From positions 1 through 33,254 of the forward strand of contig JAPLEH010000057.1 of the NCBI GenBank assembly GCA_026391455.1: a DNA stretch of 33,254 nucleotides, read 5' to 3'. Origin of the DNA: Bacteroidota bacterium (GTDB taxonomy: Bacteria > Bacteroidota > Bacteroidia > Chitinophagales > Chitinophagaceae). The number at the start of each line of letters is the position of its first letter. The stretch's first letter is position 1. Below, one piece after another: positions 11,365 to 28,716 of the stretch. The translations under genes and the position numbers were made by a program. The notes beneath the pieces were generated by a model, which worked only from the letters and a program-made list of their open reading frames with translations, made no database searches and was not told the DNA's origin.

Positions 11365-11414
11365 TCCTGTATTCCATTAGCACATCAGCAAATTATCGAA
11401 TTAGCTAATTAAAT
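11365..11414 (-). repeat. Dispersed ~50-bp element at the glgC 3' end
   Basis: The stretch resembles 26246-26281 and 26298-26351. All three share a TCCTnTGTATT block followed by TTAGCTAATTAA. This copy and the one at fdx share the 19-bp string AATTAGCTAATTAAATCAC right at the stop codon. Here the string supplies the TAA of glgC. The orientation relative to the gene is the same in both cases. Confidence 0.65.
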
Positions 11415-12701
11415 CACAAAGCCATTCGGAATAATCGCTCCCTTCTTCACCACCACAATCCCATCTTTTACAGTATACAAAGCATGGTCGGTATTTTCCA
11501 GGTGACTGCCCCCATTGATGCGCACATCATTTCCGATACGCACGTTCTTATCGAGGATCGCATTCTTGATATAACAACGATCACCCACGCCCAGCAATGG
11601 AATGCCTTTTGCCGCTGCATCAGAAATATCGGTGAGCGTTTCATAGTAATCGCTTCCCATGATATACGTGCTTACAATAGTGCTGCCATGCCCTACGCGG
11701 GAGCGTATACCAATCACTGAATGTTCAATGCGGGATGCATTGAGGATAGAGCCTTCGGCCACCAATGTTTTTTCCAATGTGGTGCCGCTGATCTTTGCGG
11801 GTGGCAACATGCGTGAACGGGTATAGATAGTGCGTTCATTGTCGAACATGTTGAAGTCGGGTATATCCTTGGTAAGATCGAGGTTGGCCTCAAAGAAAGA
11901 ATAGATATTTCCGATATCGGTCCAGTAGCCGGAGTATTGATAGCTGGCCACTTTGTATTTGAAGATGGATTGTGGAATGATCTCTTTACCAAAGTCCGTG
12001 GCAGCTTTAAATTCATTTTGCAGGAGGTCGAATAGCAGGTTGCGGTTGAAGATATAAATGCCCATGGAGGCCAGGTAAATTCGCCCCGCAGCTTTCATTT
12101 CATCACCGGTCTCGCTGACCCAGTCGCCCAATACTTCTTTCTTGGGTTTCTCTACGAATGAAGTAATCAATCCCTCGTCACTTTTCAAAATGCCGAATTC
12201 AGGGGCTTCCCGCTGTGCCACGGGAATGGTGGCCACCGTGATGTCTGCCCCTAAGGCTTTATGGTTGTCGAGCATTTCTGCAAAATCCATCTGGTACAAC
12301 TGGTCGCCGGAAAGAATAAGGATATAGTCACTGTCGAATGGTTCGATATGGCGAAGACCCTGACGTACGGCATCGGCGGTACCCTGGTACCAGGCCGGGT
12401 TGTCGGGGGTTTGTTCGGCAGCCAGGATATCCACAAAGGCTTTACTGAAAGCACTGAAATGATAGGTATTCTTGATATGCCGGTTCAGCGATGCCGAGTT
12501 GAACTGGGTGAGTACAAACATGCGGCCGATGCCATTATTGAGGCAGTTGGAAATCGGAATATCCACCAGCCTGTATTTACCGGCAATGGGTACAGCAGGT
12601 TTACTGCGGCTTGCTGTCAGGGGATAGAGCCTTGAACCTGCGCCACCGCCAAGAATAACCGATAAAATTTCGCGGGAATGGGTGATTGTTCGTATTGCCA
12701 T
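11409..12701 (-). CDS. glgC: Glucose-1-phosphate adenylyltransferase (ADP-glucose pyrophosphorylase)
   Basis: GlgC makes ADP-glucose from glucose-1-phosphate and ATP, the committed and usually allosterically controlled step of bacterial glycogen synthesis. The 430-residue protein has the nucleotide-binding signature GGGAGSRLYPLT (18-29), the WYQGTADAVRQ segment (104-114), SGDQLYQMDF (131-140, with the catalytic Asp) and the sugar-phosphate site FVEKPK (182-187). A C-terminal left-handed beta-helix runs from about 310 to 430. The N-terminal HSREILSVILGGGAGSRL context is typical of GlgC rather than other nucleotidyltransferases. It is the last gene of the glgA, four-helix-bundle, glgC series. 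The final codons run directly into a dispersed repeat, which provides the TAA stop. A strong terminator follows. Confidence 0.96.
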   Translation of the reverse strand: MAIRTITHSREILSVILGGGAGSRLYPLTASRSKPAVPIAGKYRLVDIPISNCLNNGIGRMFVLTQFNSASLNRHIKNTYHFSAFSKAFVDILAAEQTPDNPAWYQGTADAVRQGLRHIEPFDSDYILILSGDQLYQMDFAEMLDNHKALGADITVATIPVAQREAPEFGILKSDEGLITSFVEKPKKEVLGDWVSETGDEMKAAGRIYLASMGIYIFNRNLLFDLLQNEFKAATDFGKEIIPQSIFKYKVASYQYSGYWTDIGNIYSFFEANLDLTKDIPDFNMFDNERTIYTRSRMLPPAKISGTTLEKTLVAEGSILNASRIEHSVIGIRSRVGHGSTIVSTYIMGSDYYETLTDISDAAAKGIPLLGVGDRCYIKNAILDKNVRIGNDVRINGGSHLENTDHALYTVKDGIVVVKKGAIIPNGFVI

Positions 12702-12702
12702 G

Positions 12703-12745
12703 ATATAAGATGATAATTTATTAGATGATAGATGATAGTTATTAG
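12703..12745. repeat. Word repeat based on GATGATA between the four-helix-bundle gene and glgC
   Basis: The stretch consists of repeated GATGATAG/TTATTAG words. It begins two bases after the stop of the four-helix-bundle gene and ends against the glgC start. The 13-mer GATAGATGATAGT at 12727-12739 recurs in inverted orientation at 13168-13180, so the pair brackets the gene. Related words occur at 19565-19626. Confidence 0.7.
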
Positions 12746-12746
12746 T

Positions 12747-13112
12747 TTAGGTTTTCTGCAAATTTCTTTTGATCGTCTTTATGCTGGATATAAGCATTTT
12801 AATAAGTTCTAAAAGATCTGCCTGTAATGAATCAAACATTTTTTTTGTGATATAATTCGTAGCGAATAAAAGCTCCAGCCAGTATATACTTTCATTTGCT
12901 TCCTTCAAACCGATATTCAGTTTATGTACAAAATCTTTCCGGCTTTCCGCATGCTCTGCTTCACGGATCAGGGCACCAACAGATGTACCTGATCGCAACA
13001 ACTGTCCGGATATCTCAAATGCCCTGTGTTCTTTTGTTAAATATTTGTTCATCTTAATATTACGCACAGCAAAATCAAAACTCTTAGTTTTCAAAATACT
13101 TTCACGGCTCAT
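12747..13112 (-). CDS. Four-helix-bundle protein, S23/IVP family
   Basis: The 121-residue, all-helical protein carries the family signature in full: LLRSGTSVGALIREAEHAES (38-57), the segment from about 50 to 75 with AESRKDF and KLNIGLKEANES, and YWLELL (77-82). The family was first seen inside 23S rRNA intervening sequences. It shares its fold with the Avd accessory protein of diversity-generating retroelements, but there is no reverse transcriptase or template repeat here. Its cellular role is unknown. It interrupts an otherwise ordinary glgA-glgC pair and is clearly AT-richer than both. It is bracketed by 13-bp inverted repeats. This makes it look like an inserted, possibly mobile, cassette rather than a glycogen gene. 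Confidence 0.9.
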   Translation of the reverse strand: MSRESILKTKSFDFAVRNIKMNKYLTKEHRAFEISGQLLRSGTSVGALIREAEHAESRKDFVHKLNIGLKEANESIYWLELLFATNYITKKMFDSLQADLLELIKMLISSIKTIKRNLQKT

Positions 13113-13167
13113 ACGGTACGAATTCGAAAATAAATGTAATATAATAATTACAATTTAGATACCTCAA

Positions 13168-13198
13168 ACTATCATCTATCCACTATCATCTGTTATCT
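13168..13198. repeat. Word repeat based on ACTATCATC at the glgA stop codon
   Basis: ACTATCATCTATC (13168-13180) and CACTATCATCTGTTATC follow each other. The glgA TAA stop (13193-13195) lies inside the run. The first 13 bases are the exact reverse complement of 12727-12739 on the other side of the four-helix-bundle gene. Confidence 0.7.
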
Positions 13199-14614
13199 AA
13201 GCGAAGCATAAAGGTCAATATACTGCTGCGCCGAACTATCCCAGGAATGGTCGATCGTCATCATGTGGGAGCGCATCCAGGAATAGAGGTCGGGCTTGTT
13301 TTGGTAGAGGTCGATGGCGCGGCCTACGGAATAGGTGATATCCCATACCGACGCCTGGTCGAAGCGAATACCCACCCCCTGCCAGTCGCCCATATCGCTC
13401 ACGGTATCCCGCAATCCACCTACATTCCTTACCATAGGCACGGTGCCATAGCGAAGCGCATACATCTGGTTGAGCCCGCAAGGCTCCACCCGGCTGGGCA
13501 TAAGCAGAAAATCGGACCCGGCATACATCAGGTGACTGAGCGGTTCGCTGTATCCTATATAGGAATTATAATAACCGTTGAACTGGTGATTCATCTGGTC
13601 GAGCCGGTCTTCCAGTTCAGGATCACCGGAGCCGAGTACAAGAAAGTTGACCTTGCCATGATGCTGGTAGATCGCCTGGCTGATGGCTTCGGGTAGCAGA
13701 TCGGCCGCCTTTTCTCCCACCAATCGGCCGATGAACGAAATCAATGGCTTGTCCGGATCCAGTCCGAACTGACCGGCGAGTTCTTTCTTATTTTTCAGTT
13801 TTCCTTTTTCTACTAATTCGGTATCATAGTTTTTTATGATCATGGAATCGGTTTCCGGGTTCCATACATGCGTATCGATTCCGTTTAAGATCCCGGAGCT
13901 TTTTCCTTGTTCGTAGTTAAACAGATTTTCGAGTCCGTTGGCGGCGCCGCGCAATTCATCGAGGTAGCTATTACTAACGGTGGTTACTTTCCAGGCACAT
14001 TTCACCGCAGAAGCAAGGGGATTGATGGTGTTGTTCCAATCCAGCATACCCCATTTCCAGGAGTCGAAGGCGGGTAGCAGGTTATGTTTGTCCCACCCGA
14101 TCCAGCCCTGGTATTGGGCATTGTGTACAGTAAGTACGGTAGGTATATCGGCCAGCCGGTCTTTGAACTCCAGGCAATATTTTACCATAAAGGGTATAAG
14201 ACCGGTATGGTGATCATGACAGTGGATAACATCGGGTTTATGTTGCCATTTATTGAGCCAGTCGCATACGGCAGACTGAAAGGCCAGGAAACGTTCGGTA
14301 TCGTCGTCGTAACCATATATCTTTTCGCGGTCGAGCAGGCCGTTGATATCTACCAGGTAAAGATCGAAACCCAGTTTATTGGTCTTTTCCTTAATTACAC
14401 TGTAGTTAAAAAAGTGCGGGCCCATGGTACGGGTTCCCTCGTGTACCAGTTCCCAATCATTATTGTAAAGAAACTTGGTGCGGTACATGGGCATTACCAC
14501 TTTGGCCACATGGCCGAGTTCACACTGGTATTTGGGAAGGGCTCCTACAACGTCACCCAATCCGCCGGCTTTGGCTACGGGATAACACTCTGCGGCTACA
14601 TGAATTATTTCCAT
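13193..14614 (-). CDS. glgA: Glycogen synthase (ADP-glucose type)
   Basis: GlgA transfers glucose from ADP-glucose to the non-reducing end of a growing alpha-1,4 glucan. The protein has 473 residues, a typical length. It has two Rossmann domains of the GT5 family. The N-terminal ADP-glucose signature KAGGLGDV is at 15-22 and HCHDHHTGL at about 131-139. In the C-terminal domain, SFIGRLVGEKAADLL starts near 293 and RVEPCGLNQMYALRYG spans 375-390, with the catalytic Glu at 377. It is the first gene of the minus-strand glgA, four-helix-bundle, glgC series. It is divergent from the glucose transporter at 14834, with a 219-base region for both promoters. Its stop codon lies inside a word repeat. 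Confidence 0.96.
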   Translation of the reverse strand: MEIIHVAAECYPVAKAGGLGDVVGALPKYQCELGHVAKVVMPMYRTKFLYNNDWELVHEGTRTMGPHFFNYSVIKEKTNKLGFDLYLVDINGLLDREKIYGYDDDTERFLAFQSAVCDWLNKWQHKPDVIHCHDHHTGLIPFMVKYCLEFKDRLADIPTVLTVHNAQYQGWIGWDKHNLLPAFDSWKWGMLDWNNTINPLASAVKCAWKVTTVSNSYLDELRGAANGLENLFNYEQGKSSGILNGIDTHVWNPETDSMIIKNYDTELVEKGKLKNKKELAGQFGLDPDKPLISFIGRLVGEKAADLLPEAISQAIYQHHGKVNFLVLGSGDPELEDRLDQMNHQFNGYYNSYIGYSEPLSHLMYAGSDFLLMPSRVEPCGLNQMYALRYGTVPMVRNVGGLRDTVSDMGDWQGVGIRFDQASVWDITYSVGRAIDLYQNKPDLYSWMRSHMMTIDHSWDSSAQQYIDLYASLR

Positions 14615-14833
14615 GAAGAATTGAACAGTTTAAAAATTATTGAAACTGAAATTAAGGCTTTTTACCAAGCAAAAAGCAGAATTGATGTACCAATTAAAAG
14701 GACTTTTTAAAATACCCCTAAGCCATACCACCGGTTTTTTGTACAAGGTATCAACAACGCGAACAAGTGTTTTTTCCCCATCAATGAAAATTGTACTATT
14801 TTCAGCACTTATATAAACTTAACAACGATTGAT

Positions 14834-16492
14834 ATGAGCCAATCCAAACAACCAACCAATTACGGTGCATTAGGAACGCTGGTGACGGTTTTCTTCTTCT
14901 GGGGTTTTATTGCTGCCGGAAACAGTGTGTTCATCCCTTTTTGTAAGCATTATTTTCACCTGGATCAGTTCCAGAGTCAGTTGATCGACTTTGCTTTTTA
15001 TACTGCCTATTATATCGGGGCGCTGGTATTGTTTGCCTATGGTGCATTTGGAGGGAAAGACCTGGTGGGTAAATGGGGTTTCAAACGCAGTATTGTGTAC
15101 GGGTTGTTATTCTCCGCGCTGGGTGCAGCAACTATGATCATGGCTGTAAAAGGAAACACATTCCCCGGCATGTTGTTAGGTTTGTTCATTGTGGCGCTTG
15201 GGTTTTCATTGCAGCAAACCGCAGCACAGCCTTTTGCCATCGCATTGGGCGATCCTTCTACCGGTACCAGTCGCGTAAACCTGGGTGGTGGAGTGAACTC
15301 CTTTGGCACATCGGTAGGCCCGCTGGTAGTGGCGCTTGCATTATTTGGTTCCACCGCTGCTATTACCGATGAGCAGATCGCAGGATTGAGCCTCAGTAAA
15401 GTGATCACCCTTTATACTGGTGTCGGATTATTATTTGTAGCTGCTGCCGCATTATTCTTTTTCTCCAAAAAAGTACCTTCCGGTATTCTGGAAGAGAAGA
15501 CAGAAAAAGCTAACAAAGCTTTATATACATTACTGATCATGACGGGGCTGCTGATCATTATGTTTGTACCCGTTTTCAATAGTTATAAGACTGACCTCAC
15601 GAATGCTCCAAAGGAAGAAATCGATGCGATGCAGGTTTACCGTCTGAAATGGCTGATCGGCGCTTTGATCGTGGTAGTGGGCGGTTTGCTTGTCGCGAAT
15701 ATGAGTGCTAAAAAGAAGCCCGAAGGATGGGGCGCTATGCAATACCCGCAATTGGTATTGGGTATGCTTGGCATTTTTGCGTATGTGGGTGTGGAAGTGG
15801 CTATCGGAAGTAACCTGGGTGAATTATTAAAGAGAGAGAGCTTTGGTTCACATGAAGCCTCTGAAGCCACTCCATATATCATCATGTATTGGGGAAGTTT
15901 GATGATTGGTCGCTGGACGGGTGCTATCAGTGCGTTTAATATGTCGGCCAGGACCAAGCTCATTCTGCAATTCATTGTTCCGCTGGTGGCATTTGGTATA
16001 TTGATCGGATTGAACACACTCGCCAAATACGACATGAAACCCTTGTATTATTATGTAGTGTGTGTATTCATACAAATTGCAGCTTTTTATATTAGTAAAG
16101 ACAAACCAGCCCGTACCCTGCTTGTGTTCAGCCTGCTGGGAGTAGCGGCCATGGTAGTTGGATTGATGACAACGGGTACTGTAGCAATCTATGCGTTCCT
16201 GAGCGGTGGTTTGTTCTGCTCCATCATGTGGCCCAGTATTTTCAGTTTGTCCATTGCCGGATTGGGGAAATACACTTCACAGGGATCTGCGTTTCTCATC
16301 ATGATGATCCTGGGTGGTGGTATCATCCCTCCTATTCAGGGTAAATTGGCAGATATCATGGGTATACATCATTCCTATGTGATCGCCGCCGTATGTTTTG
16401 CATACCTCGCATTCTTTGCTTTTGCTGTAAAAGGCATCCTGAAAAGACAGGGTATCGATTACGATGCGGAAGTAAGTGCAGGCGGACATTAA
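14834..16492 (+). CDS. FHS-family MFS sugar transporter (glucose/galactose-fucose permease type)
   Basis: This inner-membrane carrier has 552 residues, well over the roughly 400-440 usual for FucP/GluP relatives. The N-terminal [22 protein letters not shown] (21-42) and [11 protein letters not shown] (53-63) match the FHS family, as does [16 protein letters not shown] (126-141). The extra length is mainly central. After TM6 there are two further hydrophobic stretches (about 230-248 and 272-290) with a charged loop, giving a probable 14-segment protein. The ROK kinase starts 29 bases downstream, so the pair probably imports and phosphorylates glucose. It is divergent from glgA, which would allow joint control of sugar uptake and storage. 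The substrate is inferred from context and family, not from binding residues. Confidence 0.88.
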
Positions 16493-16521
16493 TTTTTAAT
16501 TTCTAATTTTTACTTTTTATT

Positions 16522-17475
16522 ATGGCAACATTCGTTGTAGGTATAGACATCGGCGGTACCAATACCAAATTCGGCATCGTCAATAAGGAGGGTACCATTA
16601 TGGCGCAGGACCGTCTCCTTACTAATAAGCATGAAGACGTGGAAGAGTTCATCGTGGAATTGCATGAAAAGCTTTCCCCCATGATCGAAAAGGCCGGTGG
16701 TACAAAAAATTGCCTGGGAATTGGCATCGGAGCCCCCAATGGAAATTATTATACCGGTAATATCGAATATGCGGCCAACCTGAAATGGAGAGGCATCATT
16801 CCCTTTGCCAGAATGGTATCTGAGAAAATGGGCCTCCCTGTAAAACTCACCAATGATGCCAATGCGGCTGCCATGGGTGAAATGAAATACGGCTGCGCCA
16901 AAAACATGAAACATTTTATCACCATCACTCTCGGTACGGGTGTGGGCAGTGGTATCGTGATCGATGGCAAGATATTACTGGGGCACGATGGATTTGCCGG
17001 TGAACTGGGGCATACCATTGTAAGACCGGGCGGACGCTTGCACAAAGGCACCGGTATCAAAGGAAGCCTGGAATCATACGCCTCTGCTACCGGCGTGCGG
17101 GAAACAGCCCTGGAAATGCTTACTCAGCATCCGGAAGTGGAAAGCCTGTTGCGCGATTATTCCATCAATGAACTGACCAGCCAGTCCGTATATGATTGTG
17201 CCATGAAGGGGGATAAAATTGCCAATGAGATATTTGAATTCACCGGGCATATTCTGGGTGAAGCACTGGCTAATTTTGTGATGTTTTCTTCACCGGAGGC
17301 GATCATCCTATTCGGTGGACTTACCAAGGCTGGTGATCTTATCATGAACCCCACCCGTCAATCGATGGAAGCTAATCTGATTCAGATTTTTAAAAATAAA
17401 GTGACCCTGATGTACAGTGATCTTCAGGAAGCTGACGCAGCGATTCTTGGTGCAAGTGCACTGGTATGGGACTGA
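16522..17475 (+). CDS. ROK-family glucokinase with altered zinc motif
   Basis: This 317-residue cytoplasmic sugar kinase most likely makes glucose-6-phosphate for glycolysis and glycogen synthesis. The phosphate-1 loop DIGGTNTKFG is at 9-18. The catalytic Asp is D112 in NDANAAAMGE, the adenosine/phosphate-2 segment is TLGTGVGSG (136-144), and GELGHTIV (160-167) carries the expected zinc His (H164). However, the following CxCGxxGCxE motif of ROK proteins reads KGTGIKGSLE (175-184), so all three zinc cysteines are replaced while LESYAS is kept. The enzyme therefore probably holds its fold without zinc. It follows the FHS transporter by 29 bases and ends at a bidirectional terminator. Glucokinase is the best call from context; another hexose or an amino sugar is possible. 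Confidence 0.88.
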   Translation: MATFVVGIDIGGTNTKFGIVNKEGTIMAQDRLLTNKHEDVEEFIVELHEKLSPMIEKAGGTKNCLGIGIGAPNGNYYTGNIEYAANLKWRGIIPFARMVSEKMGLPVKLTNDANAAAMGEMKYGCAKNMKHFITITLGTGVGSGIVIDGKILLGHDGFAGELGHTIVRPGGRLHKGTGIKGSLESYASATGVRETALEMLTQHPEVESLLRDYSINELTSQSVYDCAMKGDKIANEIFEFTGHILGEALANFVMFSSPEAIILFGGLTKAGDLIMNPTRQSMEANLIQIFKNKVTLMYSDLQEADAAILGASALVWD

Positions 17476-17490
17476 TGCTGTATTGATTCT

Positions 17491-17544
17491 GAAAAAAAAT
17501 AATGGAATGTCATCCTCGTATATCGATGGGTGACATTCTTTTTT
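17491..17544. terminator. Bidirectional rho-independent terminator between convergent genes
   Basis: GAATGTCATCC (17505-17515) pairs with GGGTGACATTC (17528-17538) in 11 pairs with one wobble. There is an A-run on the left (17492-17499) and a T-run on the right (17539-17544). It serves the ROK gene on the plus strand and the DUF1223 gene on the minus strand, which ends 20 bases away. Confidence 0.88.
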
Positions 17545-17564
17545 GGGGAAATGCAATCAAAAAA

Positions 17565-19564: not shown

Positions 19565-19626
19565 ACTATCATCTATCAACTATTAACTATCATCTATTAA
19601 CTTTCATCTATTAACTATCATCTACT
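19565..19626. repeat. Word repeat of CATCTATTAACTAT type at the lipA stop
   Basis: About seven degenerate units alternate CTATCATCTA and TTAACTAT words. The lipA TGA stop (19618-19620) and its last two codons lie within the array. The same vocabulary flanks the four-helix-bundle gene at 12703-12745 and 13168-13198. In the lipA sense direction the array carries stop codons in all three frames. Confidence 0.75.
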
Positions 19627-21456: not shown

Positions 21457-21870
21457 ATGACCTCTACAGTAGTTTATAACGGGAATTTAAGAACCACCTG
21501 TACCCATCTTAAAAGCGGCAATTCGTTCGAAACGGATGCCCCTGTGGATAACAATGGCAAGGGCGAACGCTTTTCCCCCACCGACCTGCTGGCCACCAGC
21601 CTGGCTACCTGTATGATCACCGTAATGGGCATTAAAGCCCGCACCATGGACTTTGACCTGGATGGGGTAAAGATCGAGGTACTCAAGATCATGAAAGCTG
21701 ACCCCCGCCGGGTAGGTGGTATCGAACTTACTTTTCATATTCCGGAGGCACTGGCCGCTATAGATGAAAAAACGAAAACCATTTTACGAAATACCGGCAA
21801 TACCTGTCCGGTACAGTTCAGCCTCCACCCGGATATTGAAGTAAAGATCGACTGGGGTGCCTGGAGCTGA
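21457..21870 (+). CDS. OsmC family peroxidase-like protein
   Basis: The protein has 137 residues from the ATG at 21457; an in-frame TTG six bases upstream is less likely. OsmC/Ohr proteins reduce organic hydroperoxides using a Cys pair and an Arg. The candidates here are C52 in LATSLATCMITV, C117 in GNTCPVQF, and R38 in GERFSPTDLL. The sequence is closer to the general OsmC/YhfA-like branch than to Ohr, so the substrate is uncertain. It is cytoplasmic. It is convergent with the DUF2851 gene 12 bases away, and no terminator is visible between them. Confidence 0.88.
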   Translation: MTSTVVYNGNLRTTCTHLKSGNSFETDAPVDNNGKGERFSPTDLLATSLATCMITVMGIKARTMDFDLDGVKIEVLKIMKADPRRVGGIELTFHIPEALAAIDEKTKTILRNTGNTCPVQFSLHPDIEVKIDWGAWS

Positions 21871-21882
21871 CCCTCAACCATT

Positions 21883-23157
21883 TTATTTAAACAATGCATG
21901 TCCAACGGCACATTGCAGGCAGCGTTTATGATCGCAGTATTCATTCTTTAATTCGATGAGTGCCTGGGAATCGAATGCCGTGGCAACATGTATACCGGCT
22001 TTCTGAAACCCCCGTGTGATAAAATTAGATTCCGCTTTCGTCTGCTCCAGCCATTGCAGCGCTTTATCCCGAAACATATCATCATCATGTTCTTCTCCCC
22101 AGGCAAATAATAAGGGCGCCACTGTATTTACGATGATATTTCCGATCATGGATTCGCCCAGTTTTTTCTTTTTATAGGTTGAATATTCCTCAAAACGGTA
22201 ATGGTATTGCCAATACGGCCCGGCAGTTACAGCGAGTTTATCTTTTACCGTTTCTAACGTGGCCGCTTCCTTTATATCCGAAAACAAATGGGTGGATTTA
22301 TTGACCAGTTTGGCCAATTGTGCCAATCGTACAGCGGGAAAATTCATCGGGCGCATGCGGAGGGAATGTAAGGGGCGACCGCATTTGCGCAGCCCAAACT
22401 TATGCTGCATAAACCGATATTCCCGCTGCAGCAATAACGGATAATCATCCCTGAATTCTTCTTCAAGCAATCCCGCCTGCCCCATCAGCAGGGCTTCCAA
22501 TTGATGAAGATGGGGCTTGGTACGCATCAATACCGGAAAAGGGATGGAACGGGCAATGGCTTCGAAAGCATCGGCATTGATCCGTACCCCGAAATTGCGG
22601 GCCAGCAACCACCAGGTCGTTACCTCCCAATGGTGTTTATTCTGGCGCAGGCTGATCTGCACCTGTTTGGTCTTGCGCAATAAGCGTTCGGCCAGCAACC
22701 TTTCTTTCCAGCTTTTCCATACGAGATCCTTTACTCCGCTAATGCTTTTTTCACACGCGATGAAGGAAGCAGCATTCATCATCTCGGTATAGCGCTGTAA
22801 CAAGAGACCGGGCACCCGGCCTTTTAATTCGAGAATGGGTACGGTGGGTGTTCCCCGTTTTGCCTTCGTGACGGGCGCATCATCATGTTCCCATACCACG
22901 TGCAGCACTACGTTGTTATAGTTTTTATCATGCTGATGGCCGTGCTTATACCAGTCGGAGGTTTTGATATGCAATTCGGCAGATCCGGCCCAGGTGGTGT
23001 TGCCGATGCTGATCCGGGCATTATGAAAGTCGGGGCCCTGATTCGTATTCAATTCGCCGGCGAAAAGAATGCGAAGCGGCTCACCGGATACGGTGGTCAG
23101 TTCGCCTTTATTGAAATACTGGAATTGCCAGATAAACTGGAGTAATTTTTCATTCAT
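21883..23157 (-). CDS. DUF2851 family protein
   Basis: This 424-residue protein belongs to a Bacteroidetes-enriched family of unknown function. The N-terminus carries a very conserved-looking block: GELNTNQGPDFHNARI (34-49), then AELHIKTSDW (60-69), HGHQHD (72-77) and NVVLHVVWEHD (82-92). Near the C-terminus is a Cys cluster, C408, C413 and C416 (CDHKRCLQC). The density of Asp, Glu and His suggests a metal-dependent active site, and the spacing of D43 and E61-x-x-x-K65 loosely recalls PD-(D/E)xK nucleases. That is my inference, not established. It has no signal peptide. The gene follows Maf with a 71-base gap and may belong to the same transcript. Confidence 0.85.
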   Translation of the reverse strand: MNEKLLQFIWQFQYFNKGELTTVSGEPLRILFAGELNTNQGPDFHNARISIGNTTWAGSAELHIKTSDWYKHGHQHDKNYNNVVLHVVWEHDDAPVTKAKRGTPTVPILELKGRVPGLLLQRYTEMMNAASFIACEKSISGVKDLVWKSWKERLLAERLLRKTKQVQISLRQNKHHWEVTTWWLLARNFGVRINADAFEAIARSIPFPVLMRTKPHLHQLEALLMGQAGLLEEEFRDDYPLLLQREYRFMQHKFGLRKCGRPLHSLRMRPMNFPAVRLAQLAKLVNKSTHLFSDIKEAATLETVKDKLAVTAGPYWQYHYRFEEYSTYKKKKLGESMIGNIIVNTVAPLLFAWGEEHDDDMFRDKALQWLEQTKAESNFITRGFQKAGIHVATAFDSQALIELKNEYCDHKRCLQCAVGHALFK

Positions 23158-23228
23158 AGCGGGTACGTTTTGATAGTTTACGACAGGTCGTAAAGATTCA
23201 ACATACCCGTTATTTTCAGAAAAACGTT

Positions 23229-23792
23229 TTACAAACTGGCTAATGCGCGTACAACCCGGCTTACCGGCAGCCCCATTACATTGTAAAAATCGCCGTGAAT
23301 GGATTTAATGCCCACCACGCCGATCCATTCCTGAATGGCATAGGCCCCGGCCTTATCATATGGTTTGTACTTATCTACGTAGAATTCGATTTCCTCCACG
23401 GAGAGATCATGGAATTCCACTTCGGTGATATCGGCAAAAGCGATCTCGGTATCTCCTTTCCGGATCACCACACCCGTAACCACTTTATGCTTTTCGCCCG
23501 AGAGGGCGAGCAAAATACTTACAGCATCTTCCCGGTGTACCGGTTTACCAATAATATTATCACCCAATACCACGATGGTGTCGGCGGCCAGAATAACGGG
23601 TTCATTACCGGTATCTTTCTGTACAGCAAGTGCTTTGTTGCGGGCAATATAGATGGCCACATCATCGGAGGAAAGCCCCGGCGGAAAATGTTCGTCGGTT
23701 TCTTTTACGATCACATCGAAAGGCACTTCTGCCCATTCGAGCAATTGTTTACGGCGGGGAGATTGGGACGCTAGAATAATTTTGTTCATCAT
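23229..23792 (-). CDS. Maf-like nucleoside triphosphate pyrophosphatase
   Basis: Maf proteins hydrolyse non-canonical or pyrimidine nucleoside triphosphates to the monophosphate and pyrophosphate, and in some bacteria influence septation. The 187-residue protein has the N-terminal ASQSPRRKQLL (8-18), the AADTIVV segment (69-75, key D71) with GKP at 82-84, KVVTGVVI and YDKAGAYAIQEW. That is the YhdE-type arrangement associated with dTTP/UTP. Its start overlaps the end of the UbiA gene by four bases, so the two are translationally coupled. It is cytoplasmic. The exact nucleotide preference cannot be read off with certainty. Confidence 0.92.
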   Translation of the reverse strand: MMNKIILASQSPRRKQLLEWAEVPFDVIVKETDEHFPPGLSSDDVAIYIARNKALAVQKDTGNEPVILAADTIVVLGDNIIGKPVHREDAVSILLALSGEKHKVVTGVVIRKGDTEIAFADITEVEFHDLSVEEIEFYVDKYKPYDKAGAYAIQEWIGVVGIKSIHGDFYNVMGLPVSRVVRALASL

Positions 23793-24721
23793 AAATAAAA
23801 ACGAAATATAACCATGGATACGATACCGGTGAACATGATCAATTTGGTGAGGGTGCTCAGCCGGTGAAAATCTTCGGTGGTATGGCTTTTACGAAGCCTG
23901 AACAACAATACGATCAGCGGAAAGATAATGGCGGGCACACTGTATGCCACTGCCAGCCACCATTTAAACTGGAGCACATATACCTGCAGTAATAGCAGGA
24001 TAGCGATGAGTACAACTAACCATACGGCCACATACATTTTTACGGCATTCACGCCCCACACAATGGGCATGGTGCGGCAACCGTATTTCTGATCGCCCGG
24101 CATATCTTCCATATCCTTGATGGCTTCGCGGATGAGGGAGATGATGAAGGCAAATCCCGCATATAAAAATGCCAGCCGGAAAAATCGGGGCTGGCTGGCC
24201 AGACTGTTTCCCCAGGCATCCGTAAGGTTGAATTTGGAGAAGAAGATGATCAGGATGGTCCAGGCGGTAAGCAACGAGATCACAATATTACCGGACAAAA
24301 GCGATCGTTTGAAATTGGTGGAATAAAACCACAGCAATACCACACAACCGATATTGGCCAGTATCAGGTACCATTGCTTCATAAAGGGCAGCGCAAAGAA
24401 GGTGAGTAACACTCCCGACGTGCTGAGCATAAAATGCCAGGCAATAGCCCACCGGCGATGGATGACTTTATCCACCACCATTTTCTTCGGCTTATTGACC
24501 TCATCGATATTGATATCAAAATAATCATTGATCACATAACCCGCAGCAGCAATAAAGAGTGATGCAAATACCAGCAGAATAAATCTGCGCAGGTCGCTGT
24601 CAGGGATATGTCCGTCGTAGAGGGGGTAATAAATGCAAAACTGAAACAGCACCTGGGTGAGTGCCATAAAAAAGAGATTGGGCAGGCGAATCATTTTCAA
24701 AAAGGCTGCAATCAATCTCAT
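23789..24721 (-). CDS. UbiA-family prenyltransferase (geranylgeranylglycerol-phosphate synthase-like)
   Basis: This integral membrane protein has 310 residues and eight or nine hydrophobic segments. The two Asp-rich motifs that bind prenyl diphosphate through Mg are NDYFDINID (65-73) and DMEDMPGD (203-210). IREAIKDMEDMPGDQKYG and VNKPKKMV resemble the branch annotated as digeranylgeranylglyceryl-phosphate synthase, which in Bacteroidetes lacks a clear archaeal-lipid context. The physiological acceptor is therefore unclear. It overlaps Maf by four bases. The 188-base gap to the KdsC-like gene contains two 14-bp direct repeats. The family call is firm; the substrate is not. Confidence 0.88.
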   Translation of the reverse strand: MRLIAAFLKMIRLPNLFFMALTQVLFQFCIYYPLYDGHIPDSDLRRFILLVFASLFIAAAGYVINDYFDINIDEVNKPKKMVVDKVIHRRWAIAWHFMLSTSGVLLTFFALPFMKQWYLILANIGCVVLLWFYSTNFKRSLLSGNIVISLLTAWTILIIFFSKFNLTDAWGNSLASQPRFFRLAFLYAGFAFIISLIREAIKDMEDMPGDQKYGCRTMPIVWGVNAVKMYVAVWLVVLIAILLLLQVYVLQFKWWLAVAYSVPAIIFPLIVLLFRLRKSHTTEDFHRLSTLTKLIMFTGIVSMVIFRFYL

Positions 24722-24724
24722 TAT

Positions 24725-24752
24725 TAGTTAAGAGTTAATAGTTAAGAGTTAA
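24725..24752. repeat. Two perfect 14-bp direct repeats upstream of the UbiA gene
   Basis: TAGTTAAGAGTTAA occurs at 24725-24738 and again, with no gap, at 24739-24752. The array starts three bases from the UbiA start codon. It belongs to the same style of short-word repeat as elsewhere in the window. Confidence 0.75.
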
Positions 24753-24870
24753 AAATTTGGAACTCCTAACTACGAGGTTGTCAATATACTCCAGATAGTT
24801 ATCGGGATGGGCAATTGTGAATACAATAGTACGAAAGCAATCTAAAACCGCAAACCTAAAATCCAAAACC

Positions 24871-24898
24871 TAACATCGTACATCTAACATTGTACATC
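24871..24898. repeat. Two 14-bp direct repeats behind the kdsC-like gene
   Basis: TAACATCGTACATC and TAACATTGTACATC are adjacent and differ at one base. They lie about 11 bases past the stop codon of the phosphatase gene, in the sense direction of that gene. Confidence 0.75.
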
Positions 24899-24909
24899 AA
24901 ACCCCGTAC

Positions 24910-25425
24910 TTACTTCGACGTCACATCCGTCATATAATTCCACTTCCCATTTATCTTCATCACTTTTTCGATTACGTCGCGTACGCAGGCAGCACCGCCG
25001 GCGAAGGGAGAGATATAATGGGCGATATCTTTTAGTTCGTTCACTGCATCGGCGGGGCAGCAAGCCAAGCCCACTACGGTCATAGCGGGCAGGTCGGGCA
25101 GGTCATCCCCCATGTACATTACTTCTGTTTTTTTCAGTTGGTTGCTTTCCATGTATTGGAGCAGCAATTGCTTTTTATCGAGCACAGACATTTCCACATC
25201 GGTTACGCCCAGTTTTTCGAGGCGGTCTTTTACTTCGGGCGAGTTGCCCCCGGAAATGATCTTTACCCGGTAGCCGTTTTTTATCGCCATTTGCAAGGCA
25301 AATCCATCTTTGATATTCATCCGTCTTGCCTGCAATCCATTTTCCAGCACGAGCACTGTACCGTCGGTAAGTACGCCATCGATATCGAAAACAAATGTTG
25401 TTATGGATGAAAATCTATCGAGCAT
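24910..25425 (-). CDS. KdsC-like HAD phosphatase (3-deoxy-D-manno-octulosonate 8-phosphate phosphatase type)
   Basis: KdsC removes phosphate from KDO-8-phosphate on the way to lipopolysaccharide. The 171-residue protein is a C0-type HAD hydrolase with no cap domain and has a typical length. Motif I is FDIDGVLTDG (13-22, nucleophile D14 and acid D16), motif II is IISGG (56-60), motif III is a Lys at 84-85, and motif IV is MGDDLPDL (105-112). ACCPADA and the ending AGGAACVRDVIEKVM agree with KdsC. It lies between the UbiA gene and the iscX region, separated from both by repeat-rich gaps. The enzyme class is sure; KDO specificity is inferred. Confidence 0.9.
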   Translation of the reverse strand: MLDRFSSITTFVFDIDGVLTDGTVLVLENGLQARRMNIKDGFALQMAIKNGYRVKIISGGNSPEVKDRLEKLGVTDVEMSVLDKKQLLLQYMESNQLKKTEVMYMGDDLPDLPAMTVVGLACCPADAVNELKDIAHYISPFAGGAACVRDVIEKVMKINGKWNYMTDVTSK

Positions 25426-25432
25426 GTTATAA

Positions 25433-25467
25433 TGTGCTAATTTGCTAATGTGCTAATATGCTAATGA
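25433..25467. repeat. GCTAAT word repeat
   Basis: Four or more units of GTGCTAAT/TTGCTAAT type with a period of about 8-9 bases lie just upstream of the KdsC-like start codon. The same words recur at 26140-26168 and in the elements ending at glgC and fdx. Confidence 0.7.
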
Positions 25468-25556
25468 AATACAGGGTCGTTTTCGGAGTATAAAACTTTC
25501 TGTTTTCCTTTGCCTTTCTTTGCCTCTTTGCGTAAAAATGAAACAGCCAGAAATTA

Positions 25557-25601
25557 GCTACAAGCCGCAAGCCGCAAGCTACAAGCCGCAAGCTACCTGC
25601 C
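25557..25601. repeat. AAGCCGCAAGCTAC word repeat
   Basis: About five degenerate 7-9 base units (ACAAGCCGC, AAGCTAC) follow one another. They are followed by a small hairpin TGCCCC/GGGGCA around TGT. The stretch is non-coding and lies between the KdsC-like gene and iscX. Confidence 0.65.
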
Positions 25602-25731
25602 CCTGTGGGGCAAGTAAAACAGCCAGCAACCAGCCTTCGCTAAAGCTACGGTTTACCTACCTTAATGAAATGAAGGTAGGCAGGCATGCAACCAGCAACA
25701 AACAACCGCCAACTGTATTCAACTTCTTGAA

Positions 25732-25756
25732 CCTGCCTTCGGCTACGCTCAGGCAG
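25732..25756. repeat. 25-bp dispersed palindromic element, copy 1
   Basis: The arms CTGCCT and AGGCAG enclose TCGGCTACGCT. The whole 25 bases are identical to 28826-28850. Both copies are preceded by a TTnAAC word and sit beside an AACCT array. A related palindrome with a CGCTAAAGCTACGG core lies at 28885-28914 and, one-armed, near 25639-25657. Confidence 0.75.
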
Positions 25757-25766
25757 CGGCCTATTG

Positions 25767-25855
25767 AACCTTTTGAACCTCTTAAACCTCTTGAACCTAT
25801 GTAACCTATGCAACCTCTTCAACCTATGCAACCTTCGAGAACCTATGGGACCTAT
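25767..25855. repeat. 9-bp AACCT tandem array ending in the iscX stop codon
   Basis: Ten degenerate units of AACCTnTTn/AACCTATGn are arranged head to tail. The period of nine preserves reading frame and creates spurious Asn-Leu-Leu open frames on the plus strand. Read in the iscX sense, the array starts with the iscX TAG stop. A matching array lies at 28922-29002. Confidence 0.8.
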
Positions 25856-26091
25856 TTCTGCCCATCCCTCCACTCATACACCCACGAGCTCTGGATCATT
25901 TCAAGGTGACCTTCATTGCTTTGTTCGCGGGTGCCTTCGAAACCGGGAATCTGTAATACCCATTCTAGTAAGTCGGTAAAGCGGACCCTGTATATTTTCC
26001 CTTCATTGAACTCATCACCAAAACGCTCATACAATTTCAGTGCAATATCTTCATAATCGTTCCAATGTATCGGGGGTTCAAACTGACTCAT
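25852..26091 (-). CDS. iscX: IscX, iron-sulfur assembly accessory protein
   Basis: IscX binds the cysteine desulfurase IscS and iron, and tunes iron-sulfur cluster assembly. The protein has 79 residues, slightly longer than the 66 of E. coli because of N- and C-terminal extensions. Family features are IHWNDYEDIALKLYERF (8-24), VRFTDLLEWV (36-45), and SNEGHLEMIQ with a final W-VYEW (58-74). The acidic helix surface typical of IscX is present. It lies downstream of the ISC-type ferredoxin gene in the same direction, as in the tail of proteobacterial isc operons, but with a 257-base repeat-filled gap and without iscS, iscU, hscA or hscB nearby. Its stop codon is inside an AACCT array. Confidence 0.9.
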   Translation of the reverse strand: MSQFEPPIHWNDYEDIALKLYERFGDEFNEGKIYRVRFTDLLEWVLQIPGFEGTREQSNEGHLEMIQSSWVYEWRDGQK

Positions 26092-26097
26092 TTTAAT

Positions 26098-26170
26098 TTG
26101 ATAATTTAATAATTCTATAATTAGATAATTATAATTTGCTAATTAGCTAATGTGCTGATGTGCTAATTGA
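26098..26170. repeat. AT-rich AATTTAATAATT/GCTAAT word repeat upstream of iscX
   Basis: The stretch consists of AATT-TAAT words grading into GCTAATGTGCTGATGTGCTAATTG. It occupies the first part of the gap between iscX and fdx. The words are shared with 25433-25467 and 26325-26348. Confidence 0.6.
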
Positions 26171-26245
26171 AACAGCCAATGCGTTTTACTAAATCGAAAT
26201 TCAACCAATTTTCAAACAGTTTGATTTCCAAAAAACTATTTGAAT

Positions 26246-26281
26246 TTCCTTTGTATTCCATTATCGAATTAGCTAATTAAC
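26246..26281 (-). repeat. Dispersed element, middle copy between iscX and fdx
   Basis: The block TTGTATTCCATTATCGAATT followed by AGCTAATTAA matches the element at the glgC 3' end (11365-11414) almost base for base, apart from an internal insertion in the glgC copy. It has no gene of its own in the same orientation. Confidence 0.6.
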
Positions 26282-26297
26282 CAATTTCCAAATCAAT

Positions 26298-26351
26298 AAA
26301 AAATCTCCTCTGTATTTAATTATTGAATTAGCAAATTAGCTAATTAAATCA
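26298..26351 (-). repeat. Dispersed element at the fdx 3' end
   Basis: CTCCTCTGTATT is followed by TTATTGAATTAGCAAATTAG and CTAATTAAATCAC. The last 19 bases equal those at the glgC end. Here the TGA in the string terminates fdx, whereas in glgC a TAA two codon positions away is used. Thus one repeat supplies the stop for two unrelated genes in different frames. Confidence 0.65.
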
Positions 26352-26684
26352 CTCGCCGAGGAATTGCGTTTGATCCGGAAGGGTTACTTCGATCTGGCCG
26401 CTTTCATCAATCAGGATGCATTGGCAACCCAATCGGGAATTCAAACGGGGGTTAACGGCACGGTCAATAAAGTCCTCCTCCTTGTCCGACAGTTCTTCGA
26501 TGTGATCTGCCCCCTTTTCCACATATAAATGACAGGTGCTGCAGGCACATACCCCACCGCAATTATGGTGCAATTCAATATCGTTGGTCAGTGCAATTTC
26601 CAATAAGGACTGCCCTGCTTCCACATTGTTCAATACTACCGGCTCGAGCCCCTTCTGTTCAAAATTAAATTTAATAGTGTACAT
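26349..26684 (-). CDS. fdx: ISC-type [2Fe-2S] ferredoxin
   Basis: This adrenodoxin-type ferredoxin supplies electrons for iron-sulfur cluster assembly. I choose the ATG at 26684. It gives 111 residues, the length of E. coli Fdx, and the start MYTIKFNF fits the first beta strand. A longer reading from 26789 adds 35 residues with no resemblance to the family. Cluster ligands are C42, C48 and C51 (CGGVCACSTC, 42-51) and C87 (RLGCQC), the same spacing as in ISC ferredoxins, with the extra C46 also present. DKEEDFIDRA (67-76) is typical. It lies upstream of iscX on the same strand. Its stop lies in a dispersed repeat. Confidence 0.94.
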   Translation of the reverse strand: MYTIKFNFEQKGLEPVVLNNVEAGQSLLEIALTNDIELHHNCGGVCACSTCHLYVEKGADHIEELSDKEEDFIDRAVNPRLNSRLGCQCILIDESGQIEVTLPDQTQFLGE

Positions 26685-26810
26685 CTTCCCGATCAATTTG
26701 GCTGCAAATGTAATGCAAAACAAAAATCGGGGTTTACTTGTTCGGGAAATAAGCGGAGGTAATGATATGGAAGACTGTATTTTACCCAAAAAGGGAACTT
26801 ACAGCCAGCA

Positions 26811-27569
26811 TTATCCCTGCTGAATGCTTTCTGTGAGCAATACGTATATATTCTTCAGATGCGGGTACGCCTGCAGCAATTCGAGGTGTTTTTGAATGGT
26901 GTCCCCGTCATGCCGTACGGCGGGGCCCGTCTGTGCCTCCCGGGGGGGAACGTTTTTAATGCGCAGGGCCGTTTCTTCAATCAGGGGTAGCAATTGTTTA
27001 AAGTCGAGCCCTTCTTTGCGGCAGTAATCGGCTGCCAGGGCATAGAGATGATTGGTGAAATTGCTGACCATAACGGCCGCCACATGCAATTTCAGCCGGG
27101 CCTCATCTCCGGCCTCCTTCACTTTTTCATTAGAAATGGAATGGGCCAGTTCCGCCAGTTTCCGTTTGGCGGTATCGGTATTGCCATCAAAAAAAACAGG
27201 TACATCGGGCAGGCTCACCATTTCTTTGCGCAGCGATTGCAGGGGGTAAAAGACTCCGTATTCCTCACTCACACCTTTCAGTACTTCCATAGGCACGGAG
27301 GCGGCGGTATGTGCCACCAGTTTACCGGGAAGCAACAGGTTGTCTGTTACCTCGCTGATCGCATCATCATTCACGGCAATCAGGTAAAAATCGGCCTGCC
27401 GGCTGATCATGGTTTTATAGTTGGTGGATTCGGTATCCAGTTCATAGGCCAATACCGAAGCGGCAGAGGCATTGCGGCTATAAACCTGCAGAATGGTATG
27501 GCCGGCAGCTTTGAATTTACGTCCCAATACGGCGGCCACATTTCCGGACCCGATGATTACAATATTCAT
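26811..27569 (-). CDS. DUF2520 Rossmann-like oxidoreductase-family protein
   Basis: The 252-residue cytoplasmic protein has an N-terminal NAD(P)-binding fold starting MNIVIIGSGNVA (GSGNVA at 7-12), typical of the pyrroline-carboxylate-reductase/F420-dependent reductase-like superfamily. A helical DUF2520 domain (about 130-245) follows, with SNFTNHLYALA and LLPLIEETALRI. The reaction is not known. In Bacteroidetes this gene is often found with the KdsC-like, UbiA and Maf genes, and the same set is present here on one strand, interrupted by fdx, iscX and repeats. It is divergent from the alpha/beta hydrolase at 27830. Confidence 0.85.
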   Translation of the reverse strand: MNIVIIGSGNVAAVLGRKFKAAGHTILQVYSRNASAASVLAYELDTESTNYKTMISRQADFYLIAVNDDAISEVTDNLLLPGKLVAHTAASVPMEVLKGVSEEYGVFYPLQSLRKEMVSLPDVPVFFDGNTDTAKRKLAELAHSISNEKVKEAGDEARLKLHVAAVMVSNFTNHLYALAADYCRKEGLDFKQLLPLIEETALRIKNVPPREAQTGPAVRHDGDTIQKHLELLQAYPHLKNIYVLLTESIQQG

Positions 27570-27735
27570 ATCGCGTGAATTGGTGTTAATTTTACAACGT
27601 ACTCAACCAGTACGGGGTAGTTTCCGAATTTAACCATTATTATCCATACCCCGTTGGTTCAGTAGTATTAAATGACTGATTCATTTTTGCTTTACAGAAT
27701 AATACCAGGTTCTATTAACCTGACCTCTCCCACAC

Positions 27736-27758
27736 CCCCCTCTCCAAAGGCGAGGGGG
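27736..27758. repeat. GC-rich palindrome CCCCCTC/GAGGGGG
   Basis: The seven-pair arms plus CC/GG pairs, separated by one mismatch, surround an AAA loop. The element lies between two divergent genes and so is not a terminator for either. Its base composition contrasts with the AT-rich gap around it. It looks like an inserted small palindromic element. Confidence 0.6.
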
Positions 27759-27829
27759 CCAGGAACCTTAAACCACATAGTGTTATTTTGATTTAATTTA
27801 GTTTTATCTGAACATCATTTATTGCATTC

Positions 27830-28684
27830 ATGAAATTATCACAACGGATCGCACTGGGATATATTCGTACAAAATTCAAACTTCTCGCCACGCTTTCCAA
27901 AAAGAAAGCGGCCGAGCAAGCCTTCACTCTTTTTTGCACGCCGCAAAGCCGGAATAAGAAAAAGATTCCGGAAGTATTTGAAAAAGCAGAGAAACTGAGT
28001 TTTGTGATGGAGGGGATCACGGTACGTGGCTGGCGGTTTAATCATGATGAGGAGGATAAAAACCGGCGCAAAGCACTCATCATTCACGGCTTTGAATCAT
28101 CCGTTATCAATTTCGACCGGTATATCAAACCCCTCATAAAGAAGGGCTACGAAGTACTGGCCTTTGATGCACCCGCACACGGGAGAAGCGGTGGCAAACA
28201 GATCAATGCGCCGTTGTATCAAAAAACTATTCAAACCATTTACCAGCACTATGGCCCTATTCAAGCATATTTAGCCCATTCCTTTGGCGGACTGGCGGTA
28301 TGCCTGGCATTGGAGAATATCAGTCATACCCCCGACTACCGGCTGGCCCTGGTGGCACCGGCTACGGAAACCACCAGTGCCATCAACAGTTTTTTTCATT
28401 TCCTGCAACTGGACCCCGGCATACGACCCGAATTTGAAAAGCTGATCGTAAAAAAAAGCGGGCTTAGTTCGGAATGGTTTTCCATCAACCGAACCATGCG
28501 GCATATCAAAGCCCATGTGCTCTGGCACCATGATGAAGAAGATGAGATCACACCCTATAAAGATGTACAGGCCATACAGGCCCAAAACCATCCGCATATA
28601 CAATTCGTAATTACCAAGGGACTCGGCCACCGCCGCATCTATCGGGATAATAAAGTGAGCAAGGCGATTGTTGAATTCCTTTGA
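27830..28684 (+). CDS. Alpha/beta hydrolase
   Basis: The 284-residue protein has no signal peptide. The oxyanion segment is IIHGFESS (84-91), followed by FDAPAHGRS (112-120). The nucleophile elbow AHSFGG has S151, and the first Gly of the classical GxSxG is Ala. The acid is D238 in HDEEDEITP and the base H267 in GLGHRRIY, so the triad is complete. The substrate is unknown; esterase or lipase-like activity on small esters is most likely. The gene ends in TGA followed without a gap by a word repeat (28685-28716). Confidence 0.88.
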   Translation: MKLSQRIALGYIRTKFKLLATLSKKKAAEQAFTLFCTPQSRNKKKIPEVFEKAEKLSFVMEGITVRGWRFNHDEEDKNRRKALIIHGFESSVINFDRYIKPLIKKGYEVLAFDAPAHGRSGGKQINAPLYQKTIQTIYQHYGPIQAYLAHSFGGLAVCLALENISHTPDYRLALVAPATETTSAINSFFHFLQLDPGIRPEFEKLIVKKSGLSSEWFSINRTMRHIKAHVLWHHDEEDEITPYKDVQAIQAQNHPHIQFVITKGLGHRRIYRDNKVSKAIVEFL

Positions 28685-28716
28685 TTAGTTAAAAGATAAT
28701 AGATAAGAACTAATAG
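28685..28716. repeat. Word repeat directly after the alpha/beta hydrolase stop
   Basis: TTAGTTAAAAGATAATAG followed by ATAAGAACTAATAG forms a degenerate run that begins on the base after the stop codon. In the sense direction it carries TAG or TAA stops in more than one frame. Confidence 0.65.

Follow-up and report, generated by a model that had tools for sequence, protein, structure and literature searches.

Short intergenic repeats that keep to particular positions and strands around genes have been described before. In the parts of Rehm 2015 (PMC4692102) drawn on here, G-rich heptamers of two Xanthomonas and one Nostoc follow a rule of position and strand, may overlap stop codons, occur as convergent inverted pairs, 70 of them in Xcc and 75 in Xac, and had no function found for them. 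The intervening sequences (IVSs) of 23S rRNA, as covered in the portions of PMC4990558 consulted, carry an S23/PF05635 open reading frame (ORF) in the loop of complementary ends and are cut by RNase III in several bacteria; the origin of such rRNA inserts is called unclear there. Here, we analyzed a 33,254-nucleotide stretch (the window), contig JAPLEH010000057.1 of a Chitinophagaceae assembly (GCA_026391455.1), which is contig C21 of the 5.5-Mb genome that we call G000 and in which tandem arrays of short degenerate words lie against gene ends. We propose that at least some of these arrays are arms of small PF05635-type inserts between genes, a reading that we regard as evenly balanced once the mobility, processing, and ORF-less membership it includes are counted in.

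The insert at the center of this proposal fills the space between glgA and glgC with the following parts.

12702..13192, minus strand: the insert, 491 bp from the glgA stop to the glgC start, made of a word arm, a PF05635 ORF, and an inverted word arm.
13167..13200, minus strand: upstream arm, word GATGATAG, crossing the glgA stop (13193-13195); the arm TTAGATAACAGATGATAGT pairs with TTAGATGATAGATGATAGT downstream.
12747..13112, minus strand: four-helix-bundle ORF of 121 aa, PF05635 (23S_rRNA_IVP), Pfam E value 5.7e-26.
12720..12747, minus strand: downstream arm, the same word inverted, CTATCATC in sense, touching the ORF stop (period 7, score 11.5).

An earlier note on the window, made from its letters alone, had ranked the four-helix-bundle gene as an ordinary neighbor, but the PF05635 match makes this gene the key to the insert. 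We examined the same place in 13 congeners (5 more gave no usable locus), the upstream gene being glgA by Pfam in the window and taken as glgA elsewhere by its place and size. Twelve of them have a glgA-glgC gap of 2-13 bp and no insert. The thirteenth, G001, has a 563-bp insert in the same order as in G000, i.e., upstream stop, word arm, PF05635 ORF, inverted word arm, and glgC start. The two insert ORFs are 64% identical, with the next best in the fetched set at 48%, and the arm words differ between the two genomes, yet match within each. Because of the empty sites and the matched arms, the arrays of glgA and of the four-helix-bundle gene are best seen as the two arms of one insert. This insert lies between glgA and glgC and not inside a 23S rRNA gene; the flanks of the other loci described below are called protein genes, not each identified.

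PF05635 loci elsewhere were found to be similarly flanked. G000 has 12 PF05635 matches, and 10 of the 11 callable genes adjoin a word array, 5 of them on both sides, compared with 225 and 34 of 744 genes at baseline. Further loci were fetched best-scoring first and cover part of the matches, namely 28 genus loci beyond the 12 of G000 and 29 loci from the wider phylum. For the flank comparison we used 39 of the 40 genus loci, one being dropped for want of an ORF; kept among the 39 are L266, whose ORF start was set wrongly for the measurement (its family match contains an in-frame TAG), and L271, below the family cutoff. The arm score was the best inverted match between the 200 bp upstream and the 200 bp downstream of a gene, with a threshold of at least 14. 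The mean score of the genus loci was 16.5, compared with 8.6 for mismatched pairs, with 32 loci above the 95th and 18 above the 99th percentile. The threshold was reached by 27 of the 39 loci but by only 19 of 1,571 genes overall, 6 of which are themselves PF05635 genes; the PF05635 loci themselves offered just 7 and 3 genes as internal controls. In the wider phylum, 12 of 29 loci scored at least 14, against 0.8% of mismatched pairs, and a PF05635 match was present in 90 of 118 sampled phylum genomes, with up to 16 per genome.

A word array was found within 150 bp at 34 of the 39 genus loci and 21 of the 29 phylum loci. The upstream arm lay no more than 13 bp from the preceding stop at 22 of 27 co-directional genus loci and at 10 of 13 testable phylum loci, and the upstream neighbor was co-directional at 34 of the 39 loci, compared with 837 of 1,189 gaps in G000 (P = 0.02). 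Upstream arms scoring at least 12 (n = 47) had G>C in 44 cases, C>G in none, and equal contents in 3. The arms that match other arrays of G000 numbered 8 of 9 for its own loci, 8 of 23 for congeners, and 1 of 15 for the phylum. In addition, PF05635 flanks paired as RNA more than swapped flanks did (44.5 versus 32.5 bp; P = 1.5e-4), and this excess lends modest support to the idea of RNA processing. Four PF05635 genes of G000 (L260, L261, L264, and L265) have a common leader, TTTTAATCCGTA, right before the start codon.

To place the arrays across the genome, we used the window and 40 stretches of G000 as a discovery set (816 kb, 652 called genes) and 40 further stretches as a held-out set (777 kb, 688 genes), 1.59 Mb in all. 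The counts exclude 56 arrays within called genes and 22 at stretch ends, and the null was random placement within the same gaps. Degenerate 7-9-base word repeats do begin at stop codons in this genome, as 48 of the 197 intergenic arrays reach or overlap a stop, compared with about 4 by random placement. This was seen in the discovery set (32 versus 3.3 ± 1.1), in the held-out set (16 versus 0.7 ± 0.8), with Tandem Repeats Finder (TRF) as a second finder (41 versus 3.8), and in relatives (13 versus 1.0). Starts were also enriched in arrays, less strongly than stops (5 versus 0.7 in the discovery set, 3 versus 0.6 in the held-out set, 7 versus 1.2 with TRF, and 2 versus 0.7 in relatives). The gene calls came from a hexamer-based caller, with stops reliable and starts less exact, so some of the enrichment at starts may be hidden. 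Altogether, an array lies no more than 13 bp from the stop in 71 of 1,340 called genes, and the gaps of the discovery set held 99 arrays, compared with 1.0 in shuffles. The genome-wide enrichment near stop codons that the earlier note had set as its test was thus borne out. Contig C7 of G000 begins beside an AGGTT array (62-174, first match base 62), so assembly gaps may hide more arrays.

The arrays also have a strand polarity. The strand read outward from the flanking gene is C-poor in 146 of the 197 arrays, with 42 inward and 9 neutral, and its composition is 11.5% C and 23.9% G. This rule was first noticed by eye in the array list and then tested on the held-out stretches: on the outward strand, the discovery arrays (n = 116) had G above C in 84 cases, the reverse in 26, and neither in 6, and the held-out arrays (n = 81) in 62, 16, and 3. 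Relatives showed the same polarity, 42 to 11. It also held by family, with ratios of 26:2 for AGGTTNMAD, 14:1 for the TAATTAGC type, and 12:0 for GTACGAT, and a few small word clusters were mixed, e.g., 5:3 and 3:2. The 51 gaps with at least two arrays had leftmost/rightmost signs of +- in 30, -+ in 1, ++ in 10, -- in 9, and +0 in 1. Array-free gaps had a skew of -0.04 at stops in both sets and a small one of +0.10 to +0.12 at starts. In public metagenome-assembled genomes (MAGs), AGGTTGAAG arrays were outward versus inward 10:2 in one group, chiefly of Chitinophagaceae, and 12:1 in another, chiefly of Verrucomicrobia, where 5 of 17 and 3 of 16 arrays were unplaceable (inside ORF calls) and each group includes one MAG without a taxon in its record (Loclat_bin-19464 and RUG10674).

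The words fall into at least 22 clusters in G000, mainly with periods of 7, 8, and 9. Across the 28 unlinked arrays of the AGGTT family, with about 181 bases counted at each position, five positions keep the same base 97-100% of the time and another takes all four bases; the effect of position on unit variation was seen in 11 families (chi-square 38-515). At the most variable AGGTT position, adjacent units were identical at 0.42, compared with 0.34 after shuffling within arrays and 0.31 by chance, so a small neighbor effect remains. None of the 11 family consensuses contains GGG, the smaller clusters lying outside this check. As for how far single words extend, the 23-mer AGGTTNMADAGGTTNMADAGGTT of the AGGTT motif occurs 137 + 131 times in G000, compared with 0 for the reversed control, AGGTTNMAD is present in 3 of 38 other congeners, GAAAGTC words in 0 of 38, and AGGTTNAAN triple repeats in G000 and 2 of 295 other phylum genomes.

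Within the window, the 27 called gene 3' ends were searched from -21 to +60 for ungapped self-similarity of period 5-12, with 400 dinucleotide shuffles per end. The stretches and arrays outside the glgA-glgC insert are as follows.

11375..11411, minus strand: TAATTAGC-type array of period 8 with a 3-nt overlap at the glgC stop.
16489..16519, plus strand: TTAATTT array of period 7 that overlaps the stop codon of an MFS-type gene (14834-16492).
19566..19624, minus strand: GATGATAGTTAATAG array of period 7/14 with a 7-nt overlap at the lipA stop.
24721..24752, minus strand: C-type array, TTAACTCTTAACT in sense, just 5' of the start of a UbiA-family gene, in the same gap as the next entry.
24842..24909, minus strand: GTACGATG and TTTTAGG words directly 3' of the stop of the kdsC-like gene (TRF rows; not significant with the strict finder).
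25424..25466, minus strand: TAATGTGC array 5' of the start of the kdsC-like gene, outward orientation.
25561..25596, minus strand: GCTTGCGGCTTG array, period 7, within the iscX-kdsC gap.
25760..25847, minus strand: AGGTTNMAD array, period 9, 3' of the iscX stop.
26094..26167, minus strand: TAATTTGA/TAATTAGC arrays 5' of the iscX start, outward orientation.
26313..26346, minus strand: TAATTAGC array 2 bp past the fdx stop.
28686..28706, plus strand: weak GATAATAG words 2 bp past the stop of the alpha/beta hydrolase gene.
28918..29003, plus strand: C-type AGGTTNMAD array, CTTCAACCT in sense, that lies 5' of the next plus-strand gene and runs over its called start.

Nine of the 27 ends had a periodic stretch that beat the shuffles at P < 0.05. 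The earlier note had listed repeats at eight gene ends, and seven of these stood at that level, the kdsC end being the exception (P = 0.13). The ends of glgC, the four-helix-bundle gene, lipA, iscX, and fdx were strong (P ≤ 0.005), and those of glgA (P = 0.043) and the alpha/beta hydrolase gene (P = 0.025) were nominally significant, uncorrected for 27 tests. At the kdsC end, TRF gave period-14 rows at 24870-24902 and 24872-24909, the second adjoining the stop. The strict array of iscX begins 17 bp from the stop, and a looser row given by TRF comes to within 4 bp of it, ending at 25847. The end of the MFS-type gene at 16492, absent from the earlier list, has an array at offset -4 to +27 that none of 400 shuffles matched, and a ninth end, of the gene at 391-1425, is weak (P = 0.02). 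Palindromic CCTGCCTGAGCGTAGCCGAAGGCAGG-like elements were seen by eye in gaps with AGGTT arrays (25730-25757 and 28770-28920), and the contig end (32523-33126) has long-period tandem repeats with units of 115, 81, and 73 bp and 85-95% matches, unlike the short word arrays.

The same gene pairs were then compared in congeners. The gap after fdx is 5-39 bp long and array-free in 12 of 17 congeners, and the lipA and kdsC gaps are likewise short and array-free in many. The words after fdx are TAATTAGC in G000, GAGTTGTGAG in G010, and AATGTG in G001, and those after lipA are GATGATAG in G000 and AGTAGTTAGTAG in G012 and G004. Since the same gap holds different words or none across species, arrays have been gained, or replaced, repeatedly at these sites. 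The coding ends keep their length meanwhile: the FDX C terminus is ..QFLGE in 18 of 18 genomes, and GlgC ends at an unaltered length in relatives, with ..NGFVI or a close variant of it. These short array-free gaps and kept C termini favor the preferred-insertion-site reading among those the earlier note had offered. The congener genomes span 1.5-5.5 Mb, and the small ones have few or no PF05635 genes, no Y1_Tnp, and no arrays after glgC, fdx, and kdsC where examined.

Position, polarity, matched arms, one ORF-bearing insert with empty sites, the PF05635 link, and its recurrence in the phylum are the observations from which our proposal starts. A full insert runs from the stop codon through a C-poor degenerate word array, a PF05635 ORF, and the same word inverted to the next gene, which is the layout of a 23S rRNA IVS relocated between genes, directly after an upstream stop. 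Such inserts are probably mobile and would persist after stops as coding regions stay whole there. Their RNA might form a hairpin that is cut out of the mRNA, by analogy with the action of RNase III on rRNA IVSs. Arrays lacking an ORF may be ORF-less or decayed members of the class; those of glgC, lipA, fdx, kdsC, iscX, and the hydrolase gene are candidates, since they share words, polarity, and position. Start, stop, and ribosome-binding signals could add a selective filter that sharpens the polarity. More tentatively, and with confidence falling short of that in the proposal itself, there may be a widespread, undescribed class of mobile IVS-like elements in the phylum, with an arm-PF05635-arm structure, that inserts co-directionally after stops within operons, probably via RNA, and makes or rewrites its own arms, with the stop-codon arrays and perhaps the Xanthomonas and Nostoc heptamers as ORF-less relatives. 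The RNA route is suggested here because PF05635 is presumably related to Avd, the accessory protein of diversity-generating retroelements.

Several results weigh against the proposal. The glgC of G000 is closer to that of the insert-free G009 (93%) and G004 (90%) than to that of G001 (84%), so a shared glgA-glgC insert requires parallel insertion or precise loss. Arrays occur in 126 gaps in 29% of the genome, compared with 12 PF05635 matches in all, and most are ORF-less; G009 has 11 PF05635 matches and no array in 40 kb; and 12 of 39 genus and 17 of 29 phylum loci score below 14. Nor is PF05635 the sole gene kind found between such arms: among the other genes whose inverted flanks match are two for DDE transposases, one for a Y1 transposase, and one of the GIY-YIG type. 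In the two-arm gaps of G000, 6 of 51 pairs scored at least 14 (shuffled mean 3.0, maximum 8), and arm pairs of a gap were alike in 5 of 13 cases in relatives (null 1.2, maximum 5); hairpin arms as a general rule in G000 were accordingly rejected, as they are not clearly above shuffled partners. RNA folding of array-bearing gaps was not stronger than that of array-free gaps. No target-site duplication was identified, the congener gaps being too diverged for base-level comparison. Nor was any integrase or reverse transcriptase; for the latter, a crude motif scan of 1.59 Mb gave three matches, apparently false, and no Pfam search for reverse transcriptase was made. Finally, this polarity is also known from the Xanthomonas and Nostoc heptamers (Rehm 2015, PMC4692102, in the parts covered).

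The strongest alternative, which we consider unlikely yet well worth weighing, is that the arrays are ordinary lineage-specific tandem repeats (simple sequence repeats or short tandemly repeated repetitive sequences of the heptamer class) that have spread in noncoding DNA and end at stops since constraint sets in there, that their polarity comes from a filter of C-free signals, and that PF05635 genes simply land among them. Start codons, stop codons, and Shine-Dalgarno-like words lack C, so coding signals could select for words poor in C past stops and keep such words out ahead of starts. The polarity does fade with distance from stops, from 52:8 for overlapping arrays to 20:7 at 1-20 bp, 15:11 at 21-60 bp, and 11:11 beyond 60 bp, and at starts it persists to about 80 bp. 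It is stronger where the filter applies than where the filter gives no advantage (stops, 40:6 versus 32:9; starts, 51:4 versus 21:5), and the words at stops, read in sense, contain stops in more frames (2.42 versus 1.65). However, the polarity survives in the arrays with no such advantage (P = 4e-4 at stops and 0.0025 at starts), and stop-codon selection as its full cause was rejected for this residual bias. Words without any stop codon had a polarity of 3:1 and those with only the G strand free of stops 4:4, numbers too small to use. Simple slippage as a whole account was also rejected, as variation is concentrated at certain positions and neighboring units vary almost independently; local slippage does not fix positions at 97-100% in arrays that are unlinked. 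Ordinary repeats would not be expected to form matched inverted arms at PF05635 genes.

It is improbable, in our judgment, that inverted word arrays came first and served as landing sites at whose pair center PF05635 cassettes and some insertion sequence elements inserted. The vocabulary shared by PF05635 arms and other arrays of the same genome fits this order of events, as do two DDE_Tnp_1 genes (L084, 3536-4639, on C2, and C53, 61724-63082) whose inverted ends continue into words, TAATGTGC and GTGAATAG, that look like part of the element or a mark of its target. On the other hand, PF05635 loci have matched arms in small congeners and distant families, G000 has few arm pairs that match but enclose no ORF, and the words at the glgA-glgC insert differ between G001 and G000 while being matched within each.

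Functional mRNA elements, either evenly spaced protein-binding sites on RNA or DNA or terminators and insulators at gene ends, are a still weaker candidate. Fixed core and free spacer positions do resemble repeated binding sites, and transcripts start or stop more often at G4-forming Xanthomonas repeats than at control repeats (Rehm 2015, PMC4692102, in the sections used here). Against this, the same gap holds other words or none in congeners, the neighbors in the window are functionally unrelated, and at least 22 word clusters would each need their own binder. The translational insulator that the earlier note had considered keeps its extra stop frames, at best a side effect, and is weakened by the presence of the same word families 5' of starts in the opposite orientation. 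The mRNA-end element, also considered there, fared no better: 30 array-bearing tandem gaps had a fold z of -1.37 and 40 array-free ones -1.81 (P = 0.42), and a general terminator or hairpin function of array gaps was rejected. The least probable account, in which both 3' ends at a double-strand break within a gap gain C-poor words (by a telomerase-like or untemplated activity) and are joined, sometimes capturing a cassette, agrees with the outward C-poor composition and with a polarity expected of 3'-strand extension at both ends (+- in 30 of 51 multi-array gaps), but no telomerase-like enzyme was found, the polarity vanishes far from stops, and the frequencies of PF05635 and of co-directional gaps are left unexplained.

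Other dispersed repeats offer partial likenesses. REP (repetitive extragenic palindromic) and REPIN elements with their RAYT (Y1) transposases are dispersed, intergenic, and often in inverted pairs, and REPs are short palindromes, whereas the arms here are tandem degenerate words; G000 has 4 Y1_Tnp matches, with no link to the arrays established. The Y1_Tnp gene of G000 at C19:191223-191780 (L027, E value 8e-7) has the strongest matching inverted flanks of the 1,571 genes (score 45). Y1_Tnp/RAYT as the driver was rejected, as matches in 9 of 19 genomes, with none in the small ones of that set, are confounded with genome size. The TAACTGA repeats (MacGregor 2015, PMC4679880, as far as consulted) are likewise intergenic heptamer direct repeats, some of them from Bacteroidetes and some overlapping upstream stops, but consist of one word, mostly just 5' of starts in forward orientation; adjacent TAACTGA pairs numbered 0 on both strands of the 1.59 Mb.

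The heptamers GGGNATC and GGGGA(C/T)T of Rehm 2015 (PMC4692102) are closer, being intergenic, on the coding strand near stops and the noncoding strand near starts, with one degenerate position. The statement of the earlier note that no named element class exists was therefore not quite right, and since this rule is published, the stop-codon position bias is not new in kind. They differ in having G tracts of three or more, which the 11 consensuses here lack, in the several periods found here, and in that the parts of Rehm 2015 drawn on describe no PF05635 link. What is new relative to that work is the breadth over at least 22 word clusters and the PF05635 gene link. If PF05635 genes do travel as stop-codon inserts, the strand rule of bacterial heptamer repeats gains a candidate cause.

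The closest likeness is to the 23S rRNA IVS (PMC4990558, in the portions consulted), also a small insert within a transcription unit with complementary ends and an S23-family ORF in the loop. Here, complementary termini were found at 27 of 39 genus and 12 of 29 phylum loci, and the S23 ORF in the ORF-bearing inserts only. The inserts differ in lying between protein genes at stop codons and not in an rRNA helix, in arms of degenerate tandem words that differ from insert to insert, and in the many ORF-less arrays. In the open-licence literature covered, mostly judged by titles and abstract openings, we found no description of PF05635 with word arms outside rRNA and met no explanation of its role there, though the family is common in the phylum. 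Mobile inserts of this kind would provide a concrete unit, with empty sites, in which both the role of PF05635 and the origin of the rRNA IVSs could be approached.

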